Assembly: GCF_003987855.1 (NCBI RefSeq)
Contig: NZ_RXIZ01000022.1
Location: 3,567-67,566 of the forward strand
DNA: 64,000 bases
DNA from: Hyphomicrobium sp.
Lineage (GTDB): Bacteria > Pseudomonadota > Alphaproteobacteria > Rhizobiales > Hyphomicrobiaceae
Direction: 5' to 3'
A model generated the notes under the pieces. It had not been told where the DNA came from and searched no databases. It saw only the letters and a list, made by a program, of their open reading frames with translations. Below are positions 24,999 through 32,845 of the stretch, in pieces (the first letter of the stretch is position 1; each line of letters begins with the position of its first letter). The position numbers and the translations under genes were made by a program.

Positions 24999-25053
24999 GT
25001 GCGGACGGTGGGAGTCGAACCCACACGACGTTACCGTCTCAGGATTTTAAGTC
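24999..25053 (-). repeat. Displaced tRNA-Leu 3' fragment (att-like direct repeat, 55 bp)
   Basis: Identical over 55 nt to 32761-32815; covers anticodon loop through acceptor 3' strand; no 5' half present. Confidence 0.93.
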
Positions 25054-25216
25054 GACGTCCGTTTGAAGACCTGGAGCGAAGTAGGGACACCTCAAAATCA
25101 TGAGTCGCCCGTGCTTGCGATTTCACGGCTAACCGTTCCTTTTGAGTTCGATTGAGCTCTAAGATGCGACATAATCCCTATTACTCGAAAAGCGCCGAGC
25201 CGGTGCATTGACTTTT

Positions 25217-25234
25217 AGATGTCGTTTCACATCT
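25217..25234. promoter_or_regulatory. Operator-like inverted repeat O1a
   Basis: AGATGTCGTTTCACATCT; between TTGACT (25208-25213) and ATCTAT (25231-25236). Confidence 0.6.
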
Positions 25235-25242
25235 ATCTTGAC

Positions 25243-25260
25243 AGATGACGATCGTCATCT
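25243..25260. promoter_or_regulatory. Operator-like perfect palindrome O1b
   Basis: AGATGACGATCGTCATCT is its own reverse complement (18 bp). Confidence 0.7.
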
Positions 25261-25307
25261 AATCGCTGCAGACGTTGATTTGCGGCAGAACCGAATGGAG
25301 AACGACC

Positions 25308-25508
25308 ATGAAATCTTTGATCCTTGCTGCGGTTGCAGCTGCTGCACTTTCCGCTGGCGCAGTAAGCGCGCAGGCCTTGGAAGAAACCGACCGCGCTTTG
25401 GGAGCCGGCTCTTATGTCAACCCGAATGGGTCTGACCAGGGCGCATGGTCCGCAGCGAAGGTAAAAATCAGCCACGCCGGTGCCGCCGTCACCAGCAAGA
25501 AGCGCTGA
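25308..25508 (+). CDS. Small secreted protein of unknown function
   Basis: 66 aa with signal peptide (MKSLILAAVAAAALSAGAVSAQA), downstream of paired operator-like sites. Confidence 0.65.
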   Translation: MKSLILAAVAAAALSAGAVSAQALEETDRALGAGSYVNPNGSDQGAWSAAKVKISHAGAAVTSKKR

Positions 25509-25529
25509 GTGCCGCGCAGGAACCTAACG

Positions 25530-25558
25530 GAGACCGGGACATTCTCGGTCTCTCCTTG
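25530..25558 (+). terminator. Probable terminator hairpin
   Basis: GGAGACCGGGACATTCTCGGTCTCTCC inverted repeat after ORF 25308-25508. Confidence 0.5.
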
Positions 25559-25632
25559 CTCAGGTCAGCTCACACAAATTGCACTTGACAAATTAATTTC
25601 GATCAACATCTAACTTCTTACCGGAGTTTCGA

Positions 25633-25782
25633 ATGGATCGCTCTAATCGAAATAGTGTGTGGAACCGGTTTCTAAGGTGGGTTCAGCAGGTCGGAGAAGC
25701 TATGGCTTACGAGCCGATCGACGATCTCGAATCCAGGGTTGTGCGATTAGAAAATGAGATCAGAACCTTGCGGGCAAGGTAG
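25633..25782 (+). CDS. Small ORF (49 aa), hypothetical
   Basis: MDRSNRNSVWNRFLRWVQQVGEAMAYEPIDDLESRVVRLENEIRTLRAR; upstream TTGACA (25585) and TCTAAC; absent from the supplied track because of its size. Confidence 0.5.
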   Translation: MDRSNRNSVWNRFLRWVQQVGEAMAYEPIDDLESRVVRLENEIRTLRAR

Positions 25783-25851
25783 CTGACTCGGGATGTATCG
25801 ACCAACTACGGCAGCCGCCTACCAAGAAGCGGCAAAAAAGAGAGGTGGATC

Positions 25852-26436
25852 ATGCGCGTGTCCCGCGAGGTAATGGCGCAACGGCACGACGAAATCATTT
25901 CCGAGACCTCGAAAATGTTGCGTCAGCGGGGCATCGTCGGTACGAGCCTTGCCGATCTGATGGCTGCTGCGGGCCTGACGCATGGCGGCTTCTATAAGCA
26001 CTTCGACTCGAAGGACGCGCTCGTCGCCGAGGCCACAGAGCGGATTTTCGCCGAGATCAACGCGCGCTTTCAGGAACGAGTCGAGTCGCAGGGATCCATG
26101 GCTGCTCTCATCGCCTACGTTACGGATTATCTTACCTTAGGGCATGTCAAAAAGCCCGAACTCGGTTGCCCGATTCCGGCATTCGGACCGGATGTGAGCC
26201 GAGAGCACGGCGCCGTCAGAGGCGTTTTCACCAACGGCATCAAGACAAATCTGTCCCTGATTATAGAGGGCTTGTCCGGCCCGATGGCAGAGCGAAAAGA
26301 GAAAGCGGTGGAGTTGCTTTCTCTGCTTTCGGGAGCCGTCGCCATGGCCCGTGCCACGGACGACGAAAAATTGTCGAGCGAAATCATCGCTTCAGCTCGC
26401 AAGCGCGCCAACCAGATCATCGAATCCCCTAAGTAA
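25852..26436 (+). CDS. TetR/AcrR family transcriptional regulator (TetR1)
   Basis: N-terminal HTH: GTSLADLMAAAGLTHGGFYKHFDSKDALVAEA. Confidence 0.92.
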   Translation: MRVSREVMAQRHDEIISETSKMLRQRGIVGTSLADLMAAAGLTHGGFYKHFDSKDALVAEATERIFAEINARFQERVESQGSMAALIAYVTDYLTLGHVKKPELGCPIPAFGPDVSREHGAVRGVFTNGIKTNLSLIIEGLSGPMAERKEKAVELLSLLSGAVAMARATDDEKLSSEIIASARKRANQIIESPK

Positions 26437-26611
26437 TCAAAGCTGCTGGTACTCGGCACGGCCCCCTATTCACAACCCTGACCGCCAAGTGGCGTCGCGA
26501 TAGCAGACCGTTGCGTCGTGACCCTCCGTGAGCTCGAAAGAGCCCTGGGGCGTTGACGCAGCGTTCGCGCTGGCCCTCCATTTCGGGTGAAATCCTCCCC
26601 CTTCGAAAGAA

Positions 26612-26629
26612 AGATGATGCTCAGCATCT
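26612..26629. promoter_or_regulatory. Operator-like inverted repeat O2a
   Basis: AGATGATGCTCAGCATCT; 14/18 match to the perfect palindrome at 25243. Confidence 0.55.
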
Positions 26630-26647
26630 TTTTCGCTTGTGCTTTTA

Positions 26648-26665
26648 AGATGTCGATCATAATCT
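26648..26665. promoter_or_regulatory. Operator-like inverted repeat O2b
   Basis: AGATGTCGATCATAATCT; 15/18 match to the perfect palindrome at 25243. Confidence 0.6.
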
Positions 26666-26721
26666 ATATTCAGGAAGTCGATTTATGTCGAAGCGAACCG
26701 CCGTCGGACAGTGAGGTTGTC

Positions 26722-27858
26722 ATGAAAACGCTTGAACGAAACGCCGGGCCTCGGCACTTGACCGGCACGTCGCTCTTAAAAGCATCTGTCGCCGTTCTGG
26801 CTCTGAGCCTCGTATCGGTGGGCGTTGCAGCCTGCAAGCCGGCTGATGCCGATCCCAGAAACGGGGCGCGGCTTGTGCGCGTGGCAACAGTCCATTGGGC
26901 AAGCGCTGCAGAACGCGCCTTTACGGGAGTGATCGCCGCGAAGGTGCAAAGCAACCTCGGCTTCCGGGTCTCCGGCAAGATCATCGAGCGCCTCGTCGAC
27001 ACCGGGCAGACCGTCAAGGCCGGACAGCCGCTGATGAAGCTTGACCCGGTTGACCTGAAGCTCACCATCGTCGCCCAGACCAATGCGATCAACGCCGCGC
27101 GCGCGACCGCCATTCAGGCACGCGCGGACGAAGCGCGCTATAAAAACCTGGTCGGGCAAGGCTGGATCTCCCATCAGCGCTACGAGCAAGCGAAGTCAGC
27201 ATTGGAAAATGCGGAAGCCCAGCTCGCTGCCGCCGAAGCCAATGCCCAACTGGCGCGTAATGCCGAAGATTATTCGGTCCTGACGGCCGATGCTGACGGC
27301 GTGGTGATGGAGACGTTGTCCGAGCCTGGACAGGTGGTATCCGCCGGCCAGACTGTGGTGCGCCTGGCGCACGCCGGCGCCCGAGAAGCTTCCGTTGACC
27401 TGCCCGAAACCGTGCGGCCAGCGATCGGCTCGGAAGCAACCGCCACGCTCTACGGTGATCTCAAGTCCCGGTCTGGCGCGAAACTCCGTCAGCTGTCCGA
27501 TGCCGCCAATCCCGCCACGCGTACCTATGAAGCGCGTTACGTGCTGAGCGGTGCGGCAGCCAGCGCTCCCTTAGGCGCGACCGTGACGCTCCATATTCCG
27601 GAATTCAAGAACAAGAACATCCTCGAAGTGCCGGTCAGCGCCGTCGTCGATAATGGCTCGTCCTCGGGCGTGTGGCTGATTGACCAACAGAAGATGTCCG
27701 TAGCTTTCCGGTCGGTGGCACTCGCGGGCATCGGTGAAGAAACCGCGCTTATCACCGGCGGCGTGCAAGCTGGCGATCAAGTGGTCGCCCTTGGTAGCCG
27801 CCTACTGCACAACGGCGACAACATTCGCGTCGAAGGCGAAGAAACGGCATCACGATGA
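26722..27858 (+). CDS. RND efflux periplasmic adaptor (membrane fusion protein)
   Basis: Lipoprotein-like N-terminus (VGVAACKP), VQSNLGFRVSGKIIERLVDTGQTVKAGQPLMKLD; overlaps the RND gene by ATGA. Confidence 0.92.
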   Translation: MKTLERNAGPRHLTGTSLLKASVAVLALSLVSVGVAACKPADADPRNGARLVRVATVHWASAAERAFTGVIAAKVQSNLGFRVSGKIIERLVDTGQTVKAGQPLMKLDPVDLKLTIVAQTNAINAARATAIQARADEARYKNLVGQGWISHQRYEQAKSALENAEAQLAAAEANAQLARNAEDYSVLTADADGVVMETLSEPGQVVSAGQTVVRLAHAGAREASVDLPETVRPAIGSEATATLYGDLKSRSGAKLRQLSDAANPATRTYEARYVLSGAAASAPLGATVTLHIPEFKNKNILEVPVSAVVDNGSSSGVWLIDQQKMSVAFRSVALAGIGEETALITGGVQAGDQVVALGSRLLHNGDNIRVEGEETASR

Positions 27859-30800
27859 CAAACTTCAACCTCTCTGCCCTCGCCGTTCGCGAACGCGCGA
27901 TCACGCTGTTTCTGATCATCGCCATTACCTTGGCGGGCGCCTATGCGTTCGCCAAGCTGGGACGGGCCGAAGACCCTCCCTTCACCATCAAAGTCCTGAC
28001 CGTCACTGCCGTGTGGCCGGGCGCGACGGCAAAGGAAATGCAGGACCTGGTCGCCGAACCGCTCGAGAAGCGAATGCAGGAGTTGCGCTGGTACGATCGT
28101 GTCGAGACGTTTACGCGTCCCGGCTTGATGCTGATGAAGGTCCAAATGCGGGACCAGACTCCGCCAGCCGACATCCCTGAGCAATTCTATCAAGCCCGAA
28201 AAAAACTGGGCGATGAAGCGCTGAAGCTGCCGGCCGGCACTATCGGGCCTTTCATCAACGACGAATACGCCGACGTCACGTTTGCTTTGTACACCGTGCA
28301 GGGCGATCGGATGCCGCCGCGACAATTGACGAGAGAAGCGGAAGCGCTTCGTCAGCGGCTCCTCCATGTCGCCGGCGTCAAGAAGGTAGATATCCTGGGA
28401 GAGCGCCCGGAGCGCATTTACGTCGAATTCTCTTACGCCAAACTCGCCACGCTCGGGATCAGCGCCCGAACGATCTTTGATGCACTCAACCGGCAGAACG
28501 TGGTCACGCCGGCGGGTTCCGTGGATACCAACGGCCCGCAGGTGTTTGTCCGCGTCGAAGGCGCATACGATGATCTGCAAAAAATTGCCGACACTCCGAT
28601 TGTCGCCGGCGGCCGCGTTTTAAAGCTGTCTGACGTTGCAGAGGTCAAACGCGGCTATGAAGATCCCGCCACGTTCCTCATCAATCATAACGGCGATCCC
28701 GCGATGGTCCTAGGCGTCGTCATGCAGGATGGCTGGAACGGCCTAGACCTCGGCAAGGCGCTCGACGAAGAAGAAGCGAAAATTGCCAAGTCGCTGCCCG
28801 CCGGGTTGTCGCTCAACAAAATCATCGACCAAGCCGAAAACATCCGCGAGTCCATCGACGAGTTCATGTTGAAATTCGTGGTCGCTTTGGCGGTCGTGAT
28901 GATCGTCAGCCTTCTAAGCCTTGGATGGCGCGTCGGCATCGTGGTGGCAGCGGCCGTGCCTCTGACTCTCGCAGCAGTGTTCGTGATCATGATGATGACC
29001 GGCCGAAACTTCGATCGCATCACGCTCGGAGCGCTGATCCTAGCTCTCGGTCTTCTCGTCGACGACGCGATCATCGCCATTGAAACAATGGTGGTGAAGC
29101 TCGAGGAAGGTTACGAGCGCACGAAGGCAGCTGCCTACGCCTGGAGCCACACCGCTGCCCCGATGCTTTCGGGGACACTCGTAACGGTCATCGGCCTCAT
29201 GCCGGTGGGGTTTGCGATGTCCACGGCAGGCGAGTACGCCGGCAACATCTTCTGGATCGTAGCCTTCGCCCTCATCACTTCGTGGCTCGTGGCGGTAGCC
29301 TTCACGCCTTACCTCGGTGTGAAAATGCTGCCAAACATAAAGCCAATCCCTGGCGGCCATGCGGCAATCTATTCAACGCCGAACTACGAGCGGTTCAGGC
29401 GCGCCGTCGGATGGGCCGTGCGCCGCAAGTTCATCGTCGCTGGCTTCGTAGTGCTCCTCTTCGTTGCGGCCGGCGTGGGCATGACCGCGGTGAATCAGCA
29501 GTTTTTCCCAAGTTCGGATCGTCGCGAGTTGCTGGTGGAAGTGCAGATGCCGGAAGGCTCGAGCATTGAAGTGACGAGCGGTGCCGTTGCGAAAGTAGAA
29601 GCGTGGCTAAAGACGCAGCCGGAAACAAAAAATATCGTGTCTTTCATCGGCCAGGGCGCTGCGCGTTTCATCCTCGCCTATAATCCAGAACTGCCCGACC
29701 CGTCATTTGCGAAAATTGTCGTTCTGACGCCGAGTTCGGAAGCACGCGACGCGCTTAAGCTGCGCATTCGCCAAGAGATCGCCGCGGGTCTAGCCCCTGA
29801 GGCACGTGTTAGGGCGACGCAGTTCGTGTTCGGGCCACCATCTCCCTTCCCCGTCGCCTTTCGCGTTATGGGACCGGATCTCACAAAGCTGAGAGACATT
29901 TCGCAAGACGTCGTCAAGATCATGCGTACCAATCCGCACACCCGTGATGTCAACACAGACTGGACGGAAAGAACGCCTTCCATGCGCTTCACGGTTGATC
30001 AGGACCGCCTCCGCCTGATCGGCTTGTCGCCTAGTGACGTCGCCCAACAACTGCAGTTCCTGCTGACCGGCGTGACGGTCACAGGGGTTCGCGAGGATAT
30101 TCGGACCGTGCAAGTCATGGCCCGCAGCGCTGGACCGGACCGGCTCGATCCGATGAAGCTCGGCAATCTGGTGCTGCAGAATGACAGCGGGCAACTGGTG
30201 CCGCTCAGCCAGATTGGTCACATCGAGGTGGTGCAAGAAGATCCGATTTTGAAGCGCCGTGACCGCACGCCGACGATAACTGTGCAGAGCGACATCGACG
30301 AGTCGATGCAGCCGCCACCGGTTTCTTTGGAGATCCAAAAGGCACTGCAGCCTGTCATCGCTTCCCTTCCTGACGGCTATCGCATCGAGATGGGCGGCAA
30401 CATCGAAGAGGCAACCAAGGCCAACGACGCGCTCGTTCCAGTGTTTCCAGTCATGATCGCGCTTACGATGATCGTGATCATCTTCCAGGTGAGATCGTTT
30501 GCAGCGATGTGGCTGGTGTTGGCGACAGCGCCGCTCGGTCTGATCGGTGTCGTGCCGACGCTGCTGATCTTCAACCAGCCCTTCGGCTTCAACGCGATCC
30601 TCGGCTTGATCGGATTGTCCGGCATCTTGATGCGCAACACGTTGATCCTGATCGAGCAGATCAAGACCAACAAGGATGAAGGTCTCGACGACTACCACGC
30701 CGTGGTCGAGGCCACCGTGCAGCGATCGCGTCCGGTCGTGCTCACAGCCATGGCTGCCGTGCTCGCCTTCATCCCTCTGACCACATCGGTCTTTTGGGGT

Positions 30801-30947
30801 TCGATGGCCTACACGCTGATCGGCGGCACCGCGGTGGGAACGTTCCTCATCCTGCTGTTCTTGCCCGCGCTCTACGCCATCTGGTTCCGCGTCCGTCCGA
30901 CTGAAAGGGCTTTTTCTCCTCCGGCGCGAGTCGAAGCTGTGGCCTGA
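27855..30947 (+). CDS. RND (AcrB/AcrD/AcrF family) efflux transporter permease
   Basis: 1030 aa; GLLVDDAIIAIE, PMLSGTLVTVIGLMPVGF, ILRNT-type ILMRNTLILIEQI. Confidence 0.95.
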   Translation: MTNFNLSALAVRERAITLFLIIAITLAGAYAFAKLGRAEDPPFTIKVLTVTAVWPGATAKEMQDLVAEPLEKRMQELRWYDRVETFTRPGLMLMKVQMRDQTPPADIPEQFYQARKKLGDEALKLPAGTIGPFINDEYADVTFALYTVQGDRMPPRQLTREAEALRQRLLHVAGVKKVDILGERPERIYVEFSYAKLATLGISARTIFDALNRQNVVTPAGSVDTNGPQVFVRVEGAYDDLQKIADTPIVAGGRVLKLSDVAEVKRGYEDPATFLINHNGDPAMVLGVVMQDGWNGLDLGKALDEEEAKIAKSLPAGLSLNKIIDQAENIRESIDEFMLKFVVALAVVMIVSLLSLGWRVGIVVAAAVPLTLAAVFVIMMMTGRNFDRITLGALILALGLLVDDAIIAIETMVVKLEEGYERTKAAAYAWSHTAAPMLSGTLVTVIGLMPVGFAMSTAGEYAGNIFWIVAFALITSWLVAVAFTPYLGVKMLPNIKPIPGGHAAIYSTPNYERFRRAVGWAVRRKFIVAGFVVLLFVAAGVGMTAVNQQFFPSSDRRELLVEVQMPEGSSIEVTSGAVAKVEAWLKTQPETKNIVSFIGQGAARFILAYNPELPDPSFAKIVVLTPSSEARDALKLRIRQEIAAGLAPEARVRATQFVFGPPSPFPVAFRVMGPDLTKLRDISQDVVKIMRTNPHTRDVNTDWTERTPSMRFTVDQDRLRLIGLSPSDVAQQLQFLLTGVTVTGVREDIRTVQVMARSAGPDRLDPMKLGNLVLQNDSGQLVPLSQIGHIEVVQEDPILKRRDRTPTITVQSDIDESMQPPPVSLEIQKALQPVIASLPDGYRIEMGGNIEEATKANDALVPVFPVMIALTMIVIIFQVRSFAAMWLVLATAPLGLIGVVPTLLIFNQPFGFNAILGLIGLSGILMRNTLILIEQIKTNKDEGLDDYHAVVEATVQRSRPVVLTAMAAVLAFIPLTTSVFWGSMAYTLIGGTAVGTFLILLFLPALYAIWFRVRPTERAFSPPARVEAVA

Positions 30948-30978
30948 TCAGACAAGCGCAAAAAACAAGGAAGTTGCC

Positions 30979-31563
30979 ATGCGATTGTCGCGGGAAGCCA
31001 AGGCCCAACATCACGAAGAGATCACCGCCGCAGCGTCGAAGATGCTGCGCGAACGCGGAATTGAGCGCACCAGCGTCGTCGACCTCATGCAGGCCGCAGG
31101 GCTTACTCATGGCGGCTTCTATCGTCACTTCAAATCTAAGGATGAGCTCGTTGCGTCCTCGGCCGCGAAGGCGTTCGAAGAAGTCGTCGATCGCTTCGAA
31201 ACCCGAACGGAAAGACATGGGCCGAAGGCGGCACTCACCGCGTACGTCCTCGAGTACTTGTCCGACACTCACCGCGACGACCCAACAATCGGCTGCATGG
31301 TCTCGGCTTGCGGCGCCGAAGCGTCGAGACAAGCCGATGTGGTGCGCGAAGCTTTCACGGCAGGAATACGCAAACTCCTCGAGCTTGCCGAAGAGGGACT
31401 GTCTTGCGCCGTGGACAAGCGAACCGAACGCGCGATTGAACTCGGCGGATTGATGCTCGGTGCGCTCGTGATGGCGCGTGCAAGCATCGATGCGGCACTA
31501 TCGGAGACCATACTCTCAGACGCCAAACGCCGTGCTCTAGAGATCATCAATCAAGAGGATTGA
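30979..31563 (+). CDS. TetR/AcrR family transcriptional regulator (TetR2)
   Basis: RTSVVDLMQAAGLTHGGFYRHFKSKDELVASS; clear paralogue of the ORF at 25852. Confidence 0.92.
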   Translation: MRLSREAKAQHHEEITAAASKMLRERGIERTSVVDLMQAAGLTHGGFYRHFKSKDELVASSAAKAFEEVVDRFETRTERHGPKAALTAYVLEYLSDTHRDDPTIGCMVSACGAEASRQADVVREAFTAGIRKLLELAEEGLSCAVDKRTERAIELGGLMLGALVMARASIDAALSETILSDAKRRALEIINQED

Positions 31564-31637
31564 GGGCCGGGCGGAGCATTTCGACCACTTCGTCCTATCA
31601 GTCACTCCACCCCCCATATCCAAACAGGAGTTCAATC

Positions 31638-32498
31638 ATGGCGTCTGACAATGCAGCTAAGCCAAGCTTGCTCAAAATTTCGGATAAGCTCAGCATCAGG
31701 TTTCAAAAGACGGGCGAAGGTCCGCCATTGGTTCTCATGCATACGATCCGTACGCAGCTTGAATACTTCCGCGCGCTGCTTCCTGCACTTGCGCGTTCCT
31801 ATACCGTGTACGCCATTGACTTGCCGGGGCACGGGCGATCGCCGATTGATCCCAACGCGGAACTGGACGAACCCTATATGAGACGCGCGGTCATCAGTTT
31901 CATCGAGAAGCTGAACCTCACGGACGTAACGCTCGTCGGAGAGTCTATCGGTGGCGCGCTTGCCCTGACTGTTGCCGCCTCAATTCCGCAGCGGATCAAG
32001 CACGTCTATGCGTTGAACCCGTACGATTATGAAACGCGCTACGGTGATGGCATCCGCCGGGGCAACTGGTTCTCTAACTTTATCATCGGCAGTTTGCAAA
32101 TTCCTGCTTTGGGCGCATTCAATGCGTCGCTGGAGAATAAGGTCGTGCTCAAGAAGATCATGGGCGGCGGCTACCACGATCCGAAGAAACTACCCGACGA
32201 TTTGCTGACCGAGTTCGATCAAGTCGCCCACCTGCCCGGATACAAGCGCGCTGCGCGCAAGGTGTTGGCTGGCTGGCGATCCTGGAGCAAAGCGCGGGAT
32301 CTGTATAGCGGAATCAGCGCGCCCGTTACCTTGATCTACGGCGACTCGGATTGGTCTCATCCCAGCGAAAGGGAACGCACCAGGTCACTCATTGCTCAGG
32401 CCAGAATGGTGACTCTCAAAAATACTGGCCACTTCTCGGCAGTCGAGAACCCCGGCGAACTGGCGCAAGTCATCCTCGCGGATCAGCCCAGGCAGTGA
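31638..32498 (+). CDS. Alpha/beta hydrolase
   Basis: AIDLPGHGRSPID, nucleophile elbow VGESIGGALAL, C-terminal NTGHFSAVENP. Confidence 0.9.
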   Translation: MASDNAAKPSLLKISDKLSIRFQKTGEGPPLVLMHTIRTQLEYFRALLPALARSYTVYAIDLPGHGRSPIDPNAELDEPYMRRAVISFIEKLNLTDVTLVGESIGGALALTVAASIPQRIKHVYALNPYDYETRYGDGIRRGNWFSNFIIGSLQIPALGAFNASLENKVVLKKIMGGGYHDPKKLPDDLLTEFDQVAHLPGYKRAARKVLAGWRSWSKARDLYSGISAPVTLIYGDSDWSHPSERERTRSLIAQARMVTLKNTGHFSAVENPGELAQVILADQPRQ

Positions 32499-32760
32499 AA
32501 GTATTTCTGTGTCGCTCCGCGAGGCGAGCCAATTGATCCAAGGACCCCATGGCGGGTAACCCTTCGCTGTTGTCCGCCGTGACATGGTTGAGGAACATCG
32601 GGACAACGCGGACTTTGAGCTGACCGGACGTCCGCTCTCTCCGCAAAGCGGTAGCCGCTTCGTCACACAGAACGTCCGAACGCGCGTGTCCTGACGCATA
32701 ATTCGCAGAACGAGATTGTCAGTGCATCAAATCGGCTTTTTTGCACGGCACAGCCGTATG

Positions 32761-32815
32761 GTGCGGACGGTGGGAGTCGAACCCACACGACGTTACCGTC
32801 TCAGGATTTTAAGTC
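32761..32815 (-). repeat. tRNA-Leu 3' half, second copy of the 55-bp direct repeat
   Basis: Identical to 24999-25053. Confidence 0.93.
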
Positions 32816-32845
32816 CTGTGTGTCTACCGGTTCCACCACGTCCGC
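32762..32845 (-). tRNA. tRNA-Leu (anticodon TAA)
   Basis: GCGGACGTGGTGGAACCGGTAGACACACAGGACTTAAAATCCTGAGACGGTAACGTCGTGTGGGTTCGACTCCCACCGTCCGCA; class II variable arm; CCA encoded at 32759-32761. Confidence 0.96.

Follow-up and report, generated by a model that had tools for sequence, protein, structure and literature searches.

Candidate tandem operators of two TetR regulators upstream of a small secreted protein gene and an RND efflux operon on a Hyphomicrobium genomic island

Four related 18-bp palindromic sites, arranged as two tandem pairs on a small genomic island of Hyphomicrobium sp., are very probably tandem operators through which the island's own TetR regulators (TetR1 and TetR2) repress a small secreted protein gene and an RND efflux operon. 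The original prediction, that one or both of the island's TetR proteins control a small regulon, is supported at the sequence level by the co-occurrence of motif and TetR genes in both directions and by the conservation of the target genes. Binding itself, repression rather than activation, the ligand, and which TetR uses which site are inferred.

The island is 7.76 kb in length and covers positions 24999-32815 of the 64-kb stretch of DNA analyzed here (the window). It is inserted at a tRNA-Leu (TAA) gene (32759..32845, minus strand) and is bounded by a 55-bp exact terminal repeat, the far copy of which corresponds to the 3' part of tRNA-Leu (24999..25053, minus strand). The same site is unoccupied in a relative (G014, L165), in which an HXXEE gene, tRNA-Leu and a thioredoxin-like gene follow one another without the island, so that the element has the features of a tRNA-gene island: the 3' end of the tRNA is repeated directly at its two ends, and a relative has the empty site. 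No integrase was found among the Pfam-scanned island genes, no other long ORF is present in 25.0-32.8 kb, and defence-system profiles gave no match. Other species of the genus carry additional partial copies of the 3' end of tRNA-Leu (L186 in G013, L187 in G004, L188 in G006, and G007:C1:3959211), which suggests that different islands have inserted repeatedly at this tRNA-Leu gene. The same seven-gene block is also found in G007 (L037, G007:C1:2898000-2916000), about 1 Mb from the tRNA-Leu gene of that genome.

All seven island genes lie on the plus strand. The leftmost encodes a small secreted protein of 66 aa (25308..25508) with a signal-peptide-like start and the conserved core ETDRAxGAGSYxxPTGPxNGxW, for which no Pfam or NCBIfam match was obtained. 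It is followed by a 49-aa ORF (25633..25782), likewise without a family match in Pfam or NCBIfam, homologues of which lie beside TetR genes in G007, G017 and G063, and by the candidate repressor TetR1 (25852..26436; TetR_N, PF00440, E=1.5e-11). The second group comprises an RND periplasmic adaptor (MFP) gene (26722..27858; TIGR01730, 198 bits against a cut-off of 94.9), an RND permease gene (27855..30947; PF00873, E=2.8e-149), the second candidate repressor TetR2 (30979..31563; PF00440, E=1.8e-13) and, as the last island gene, an alpha/beta hydrolase (31638..32498; PF00561, E=1.5e-25). Both the adaptor and the permease genes expected of an RND efflux operon are thus present downstream of the second pair of sites.

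All four 18-bp sequences of the original prediction were recovered at their positions. Operators O1a (AGATGTCGTTTCACATCT, 25217..25234) and O1b (AGATGACGATCGTCATCT, 25243..25260) lie upstream of the secreted protein gene, and O2a (AGATGATGCTCAGCATCT, 26612..26629) and O2b (AGATGTCGATCATAATCT, 26648..26665) upstream of the MFP-RND operon, the O2 pair lying 57 bp upstream of the adaptor gene; none of the sites is assigned to a strand. The centres of O1a and O1b are 26 bp apart and those of O2a and O2b 36 bp apart, which is one helical turn more. The predicted palindrome counts hold for O1b (18/18) and O2a (14/18); those for O1a (13) and O2b (15) cannot be correct because an 18-mer can match its own reverse complement only at an even number of positions, and both sites measure 12/18. 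The right arm of O2b reads AATCT, not CATCT. When the window and the collected loci were scanned with a matrix built from sites that precede homologous TetR genes of other organisms, with no window site included, the four top positions in the 64-kb window were the four reported sites, in the order O2b (30.8 bits), O1a (26.6), O1b (24.9) and O2a (22.8).

Two promoters are proposed for the first part of the island. Both were read by eye, and neither was reported by the consensus scan. That of the secreted protein gene (25208..25236, plus strand) consists of TTGACT (25208-25213), a 17-bp spacer and ATCTAT (25231-25236). O1a had been predicted to fit exactly between these hexamers; the hexamers and their spacing are as described, but O1a begins four bases past the end of TTGACT and overlaps the first four bases of ATCTAT. 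It therefore covers parts of the spacer and the -10 element of the proposed promoter, and O1b lies near the expected transcription start. The other promoter (25585..25613, plus strand; TTGACA, 17 bp, ATCTAA) is proposed for the unit of the 49-aa ORF and TetR1, and it overlaps a weaker fifth site, O3 (TAATTTCGATCAACATCT, 25594..25611, strand not assigned), which ranks fifth in the window with a score of 18.2. O3 is palindromic at 10/18 positions, has only one good half, and precedes the 49-aa ORF (25633) and TetR1. It is kept in G007 together with the same TTGACA (L037:5107, score 18.3). In control sequence totalling 790 kb, a matrix score of at least 18 is reached about 28 times; O3 is therefore likely, but not certain, to be an operator, and its position suggests control of TetR1's own unit, i.e., autoregulation.

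TetR1 and TetR2 are 51% identical and share a nearly identical recognition helix, the region of which reads THGGFY[KR]HF in both proteins. Both exceed the PF00440 cut-off of 24 bits (44.3 for TetR1 and 50.4 for TetR2), as expected for a TetR_N domain, and both reach 20.5 and 21.7 bits, respectively, for TetR_C_13, which is below its cut-off of 27. They show full-length similarity to the solved TetR proteins 2fd5 and 3dpj. By sequence, the closest solved structure to TetR1 is PDB 2fd5 of Pseudomonas aeruginosa (E=1.2e-17; profile 5.7e-27), which we take to be a PA3133-type TetR; it differs from the island regulators in that the Pseudomonas homologues retrieved (L091, L095) are without the strict AGATG motif. 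In the tree, TetR1 and TetR2 fall into separate supported groups and are therefore old paralogues that arose from an old duplication. Given 51% identity and nearly identical recognition helices, both probably read the same operator, and with shared operators they may still answer to different ligands. A third TetR paralogue, 35-37% similar, is encoded in the genome (C4:72798) and across the genus. A variant palindrome, for example ATATATGATGATCATAATTAA, is located about 200 bp upstream of this paralogue (L051, L018, L021, L022) and may be its own operator.

The association between the motif and this TetR group was examined from both sides. Starting from the motif, we searched for site pairs with the pattern AGAT-N10-ATCT / N4-24 / AGAT-N10-ATCT and used the reversed pattern as a control. 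Among 103 genomes of the family, the pair pattern occurs at five places (twice in G000 and once each in G007, G017 and G035), every one of them at a gene homologous to the island's TetR, secreted-protein or RND genes, and the reversed pattern has no match. In 398 genomes of the order, 16 places were found against a single match of the reversed control; all seven matrix-fitting pairs adjoin a TetR1/TetR2 homologue, and none of the nine poorly fitting pairs does. Starting from the proteins, TetR homologues were gathered from the family and from a large genome collection, the latter giving 67 non-redundant loci from Proteobacteria, Actinobacteria, Acidobacteria and others. Nine or more of the ten arm letters were matched by a site within 250 bp upstream of 40 of these 67 homologues, compared with 1.4% of random stretches taken from their loci and, in Markov shuffles, 0.6 of 67 loci on average; the remaining 27 homologues have no such site within that distance. 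The consensus of the homologue sites is tttAGATGAyrn-nyrTCATCTaaa. The commonest distance between paired sites among homologues is 26 bp, which is that of O1a and O1b; the O2 pair (36 bp) departs from it. These counts show that predicted operators and genes of this TetR group accompany one another, whichever of the two the search starts from, and that pair spacing is conserved. The residue after FY in the recognition helix (K/R or G) was considered as a determinant of motif presence and found unsupported, the motif being present in 14 of 18 G-type homologues.

The sites also stay with the same targets, the secreted protein and MFP-RND genes, in other genera despite changed gene order. Site pairs 24-28 bp apart precede the secreted-protein gene in G000, G017, G051, G068, G035 and G134, and sites lie upstream of MFP-RND genes in G007, G017, G025, G041, G068 and G004. 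Orthologous sites in G007 were identified for O2a (L037:6138) and O2b (L037:6175, score 31.7), the latter with counterparts in G017, G025 and G041. The secreted protein is rare, being encoded in eight of 103 family genomes; a close TetR1 homologue is present in nine genomes, six of which are among these eight. Against the model, the close relative G007 has lost O1 and the start of the secreted-protein gene, at the left edge of the block, and two divergent secreted-protein copies in G022 are without a site. Members of the secreted-protein family (L038, L041, L043, L046, L154) usually adjoin a TetR gene with tandem sites.

Could the palindromes reflect chance or coding bias? Exact pattern searches of the whole 3.78-Mb genome found AGATG-N9-ATCT at 37 places, 33 of them besides the four reported sites; those four, however, fall within 1449 bp, for which the Poisson P is about 1e-9. 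The concern that the motif might be common at random positions of the genome was not borne out, as the close-pair pattern is confined to the O1 and O2 pairs and the nine other full-arm sites (AGATG-N8-CATCT) all sit within long ORFs. Together with the conservation of the sites across species, this leaves chance or coding bias a practically negligible explanation, and for the four sites a chance origin is already refuted by the comparative sequence data. It is also very improbable that the palindromes act as RNA or DNA structures, such as terminator-like hairpins, rather than as operators. O2a and the T's that follow it were marked, on either strand, as resembling a terminator hairpin, but terminator-like matches in the region are at the shuffle mean (9 vs 7.9), two of the four sites pair at only six of nine positions, and what is conserved is the identity of the bases (AGATG/CATCT) and not just their pairing.

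The identity of the regulator deserves closer weighing. The sites might be used by a protein encoded off the island, either a global factor or a further TetR, and the third TetR paralogue of the genome and genus would be a candidate; yet its own region contains only weaker variant palindromes and no site with at least nine arm letters. Moreover, the rest of the genome contains no further copy of the motif pair, and most relatives without the module lack it as well; the motif therefore travels with the island TetR group. We regard an outside regulator as improbable. A division of labour within the island has a real, if less than even, chance of being correct: each TetR would control one operon only (e.g., TetR1 its own secreted-protein unit, with the RND operon left to TetR2), and common ancestry of the two TetRs would account for the shared motif. 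The presence of one TetR per operon, the old duplication, and the retention of the motif at loci with a single TetR and a single target (G025, G035) are consistent with such a division, whereas the nearly identical recognition helices, O1 and O2 sequences that are not separable into two types, and a TetR1 orthologue in G017 that adjoins MFP-RND rather than the secreted-protein gene argue against it.

The preferred reading, control by the island's own TetRs, has known parallels. Among the TetR regulators that have been studied, the majority repress their targets, in many cases efflux pumps, until a ligand relieves the repression (PMC3511530); by this family precedent, TetR1 and TetR2 are probably repressors as well. 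Two palindromic operators are located between tetR and tetA (PMC3511530). The island, as predicted here, resembles that system in a TetR-family dimer, two palindromic operators over promoters, an efflux target and local autoregulation, and differs from it in operator sequence, in having two TetR genes, two co-directional operons and five sites, and in having an RND pump instead of TetA together with a secreted-protein target. In Bradyrhizobium japonicum, the flavonoid-responsive FrrA-FreCAB system is likewise an alphaproteobacterial TetR regulator adjoining an RND pump; in the parts of that paper drawn on here, no secreted-protein target is reported for it, unlike in the island (PMC4070704). 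The BjG30 locus of the same organism (bll7019-bll7025), described there as induced by genistein within minutes, can be likened to the island by gene content, since it combines an RND pump, two TetR genes and small unknown proteins; it has an extra efflux protein and PHB genes (PMC4070704). By analogy, the predicted control logic of the island is that of tetR-tetA and of TetR-controlled RND pumps such as FrrA-FreCAB, and is of an ordinary, well-known type.

In the mechanism we propose, dimers of TetR1 and/or TetR2 would occupy O1a/O1b and O2a/O2b, over or beside the promoters, and would prevent expression of the secreted-protein gene and of the MFP-RND-TetR2-hydrolase operon. A small molecule, probably a substrate of the pump, would release the TetRs so that all units are induced together, and O3, ahead of the 49-aa ORF and TetR1, would provide autoregulation. 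The sites have the form expected of such operators, short palindromes at promoters of or next to a regulator gene, and they are conserved upstream of its homologues.

A wider proposal comes close to an even chance of being right without quite reaching it: that the TetR subgroup with THGGFY[KR/G]HF, found in Proteobacteria, Actinobacteria, Acidobacteria and others, uses one operator code, tttAGATGAyrn-nyrTCATCTaaa, in tandem pairs mostly 26 bp apart, and that its most constant partner in Hyphomicrobiaceae is the small secreted protein, co-induced with the RND pump. Text searches for the motif and the recognition-helix letters returned no earlier description, and a literature search found no study of a Hyphomicrobium TetR-RND system; open-access coverage is incomplete in both cases, and the motif may have been described before. 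The operator consensus of so broad a TetR subgroup may be new, as may its secreted-protein partner. For an uncharacterized TetR subgroup, the analysis supplies an operator sequence together with a predicted regulon, and with this one consensus targets could be assigned to many TetR genes that have not been studied. It would also connect RND efflux with a small, conserved, functionally uncharacterized secreted protein, within a predicted control circuit that travels with the island and survives gene rearrangement.
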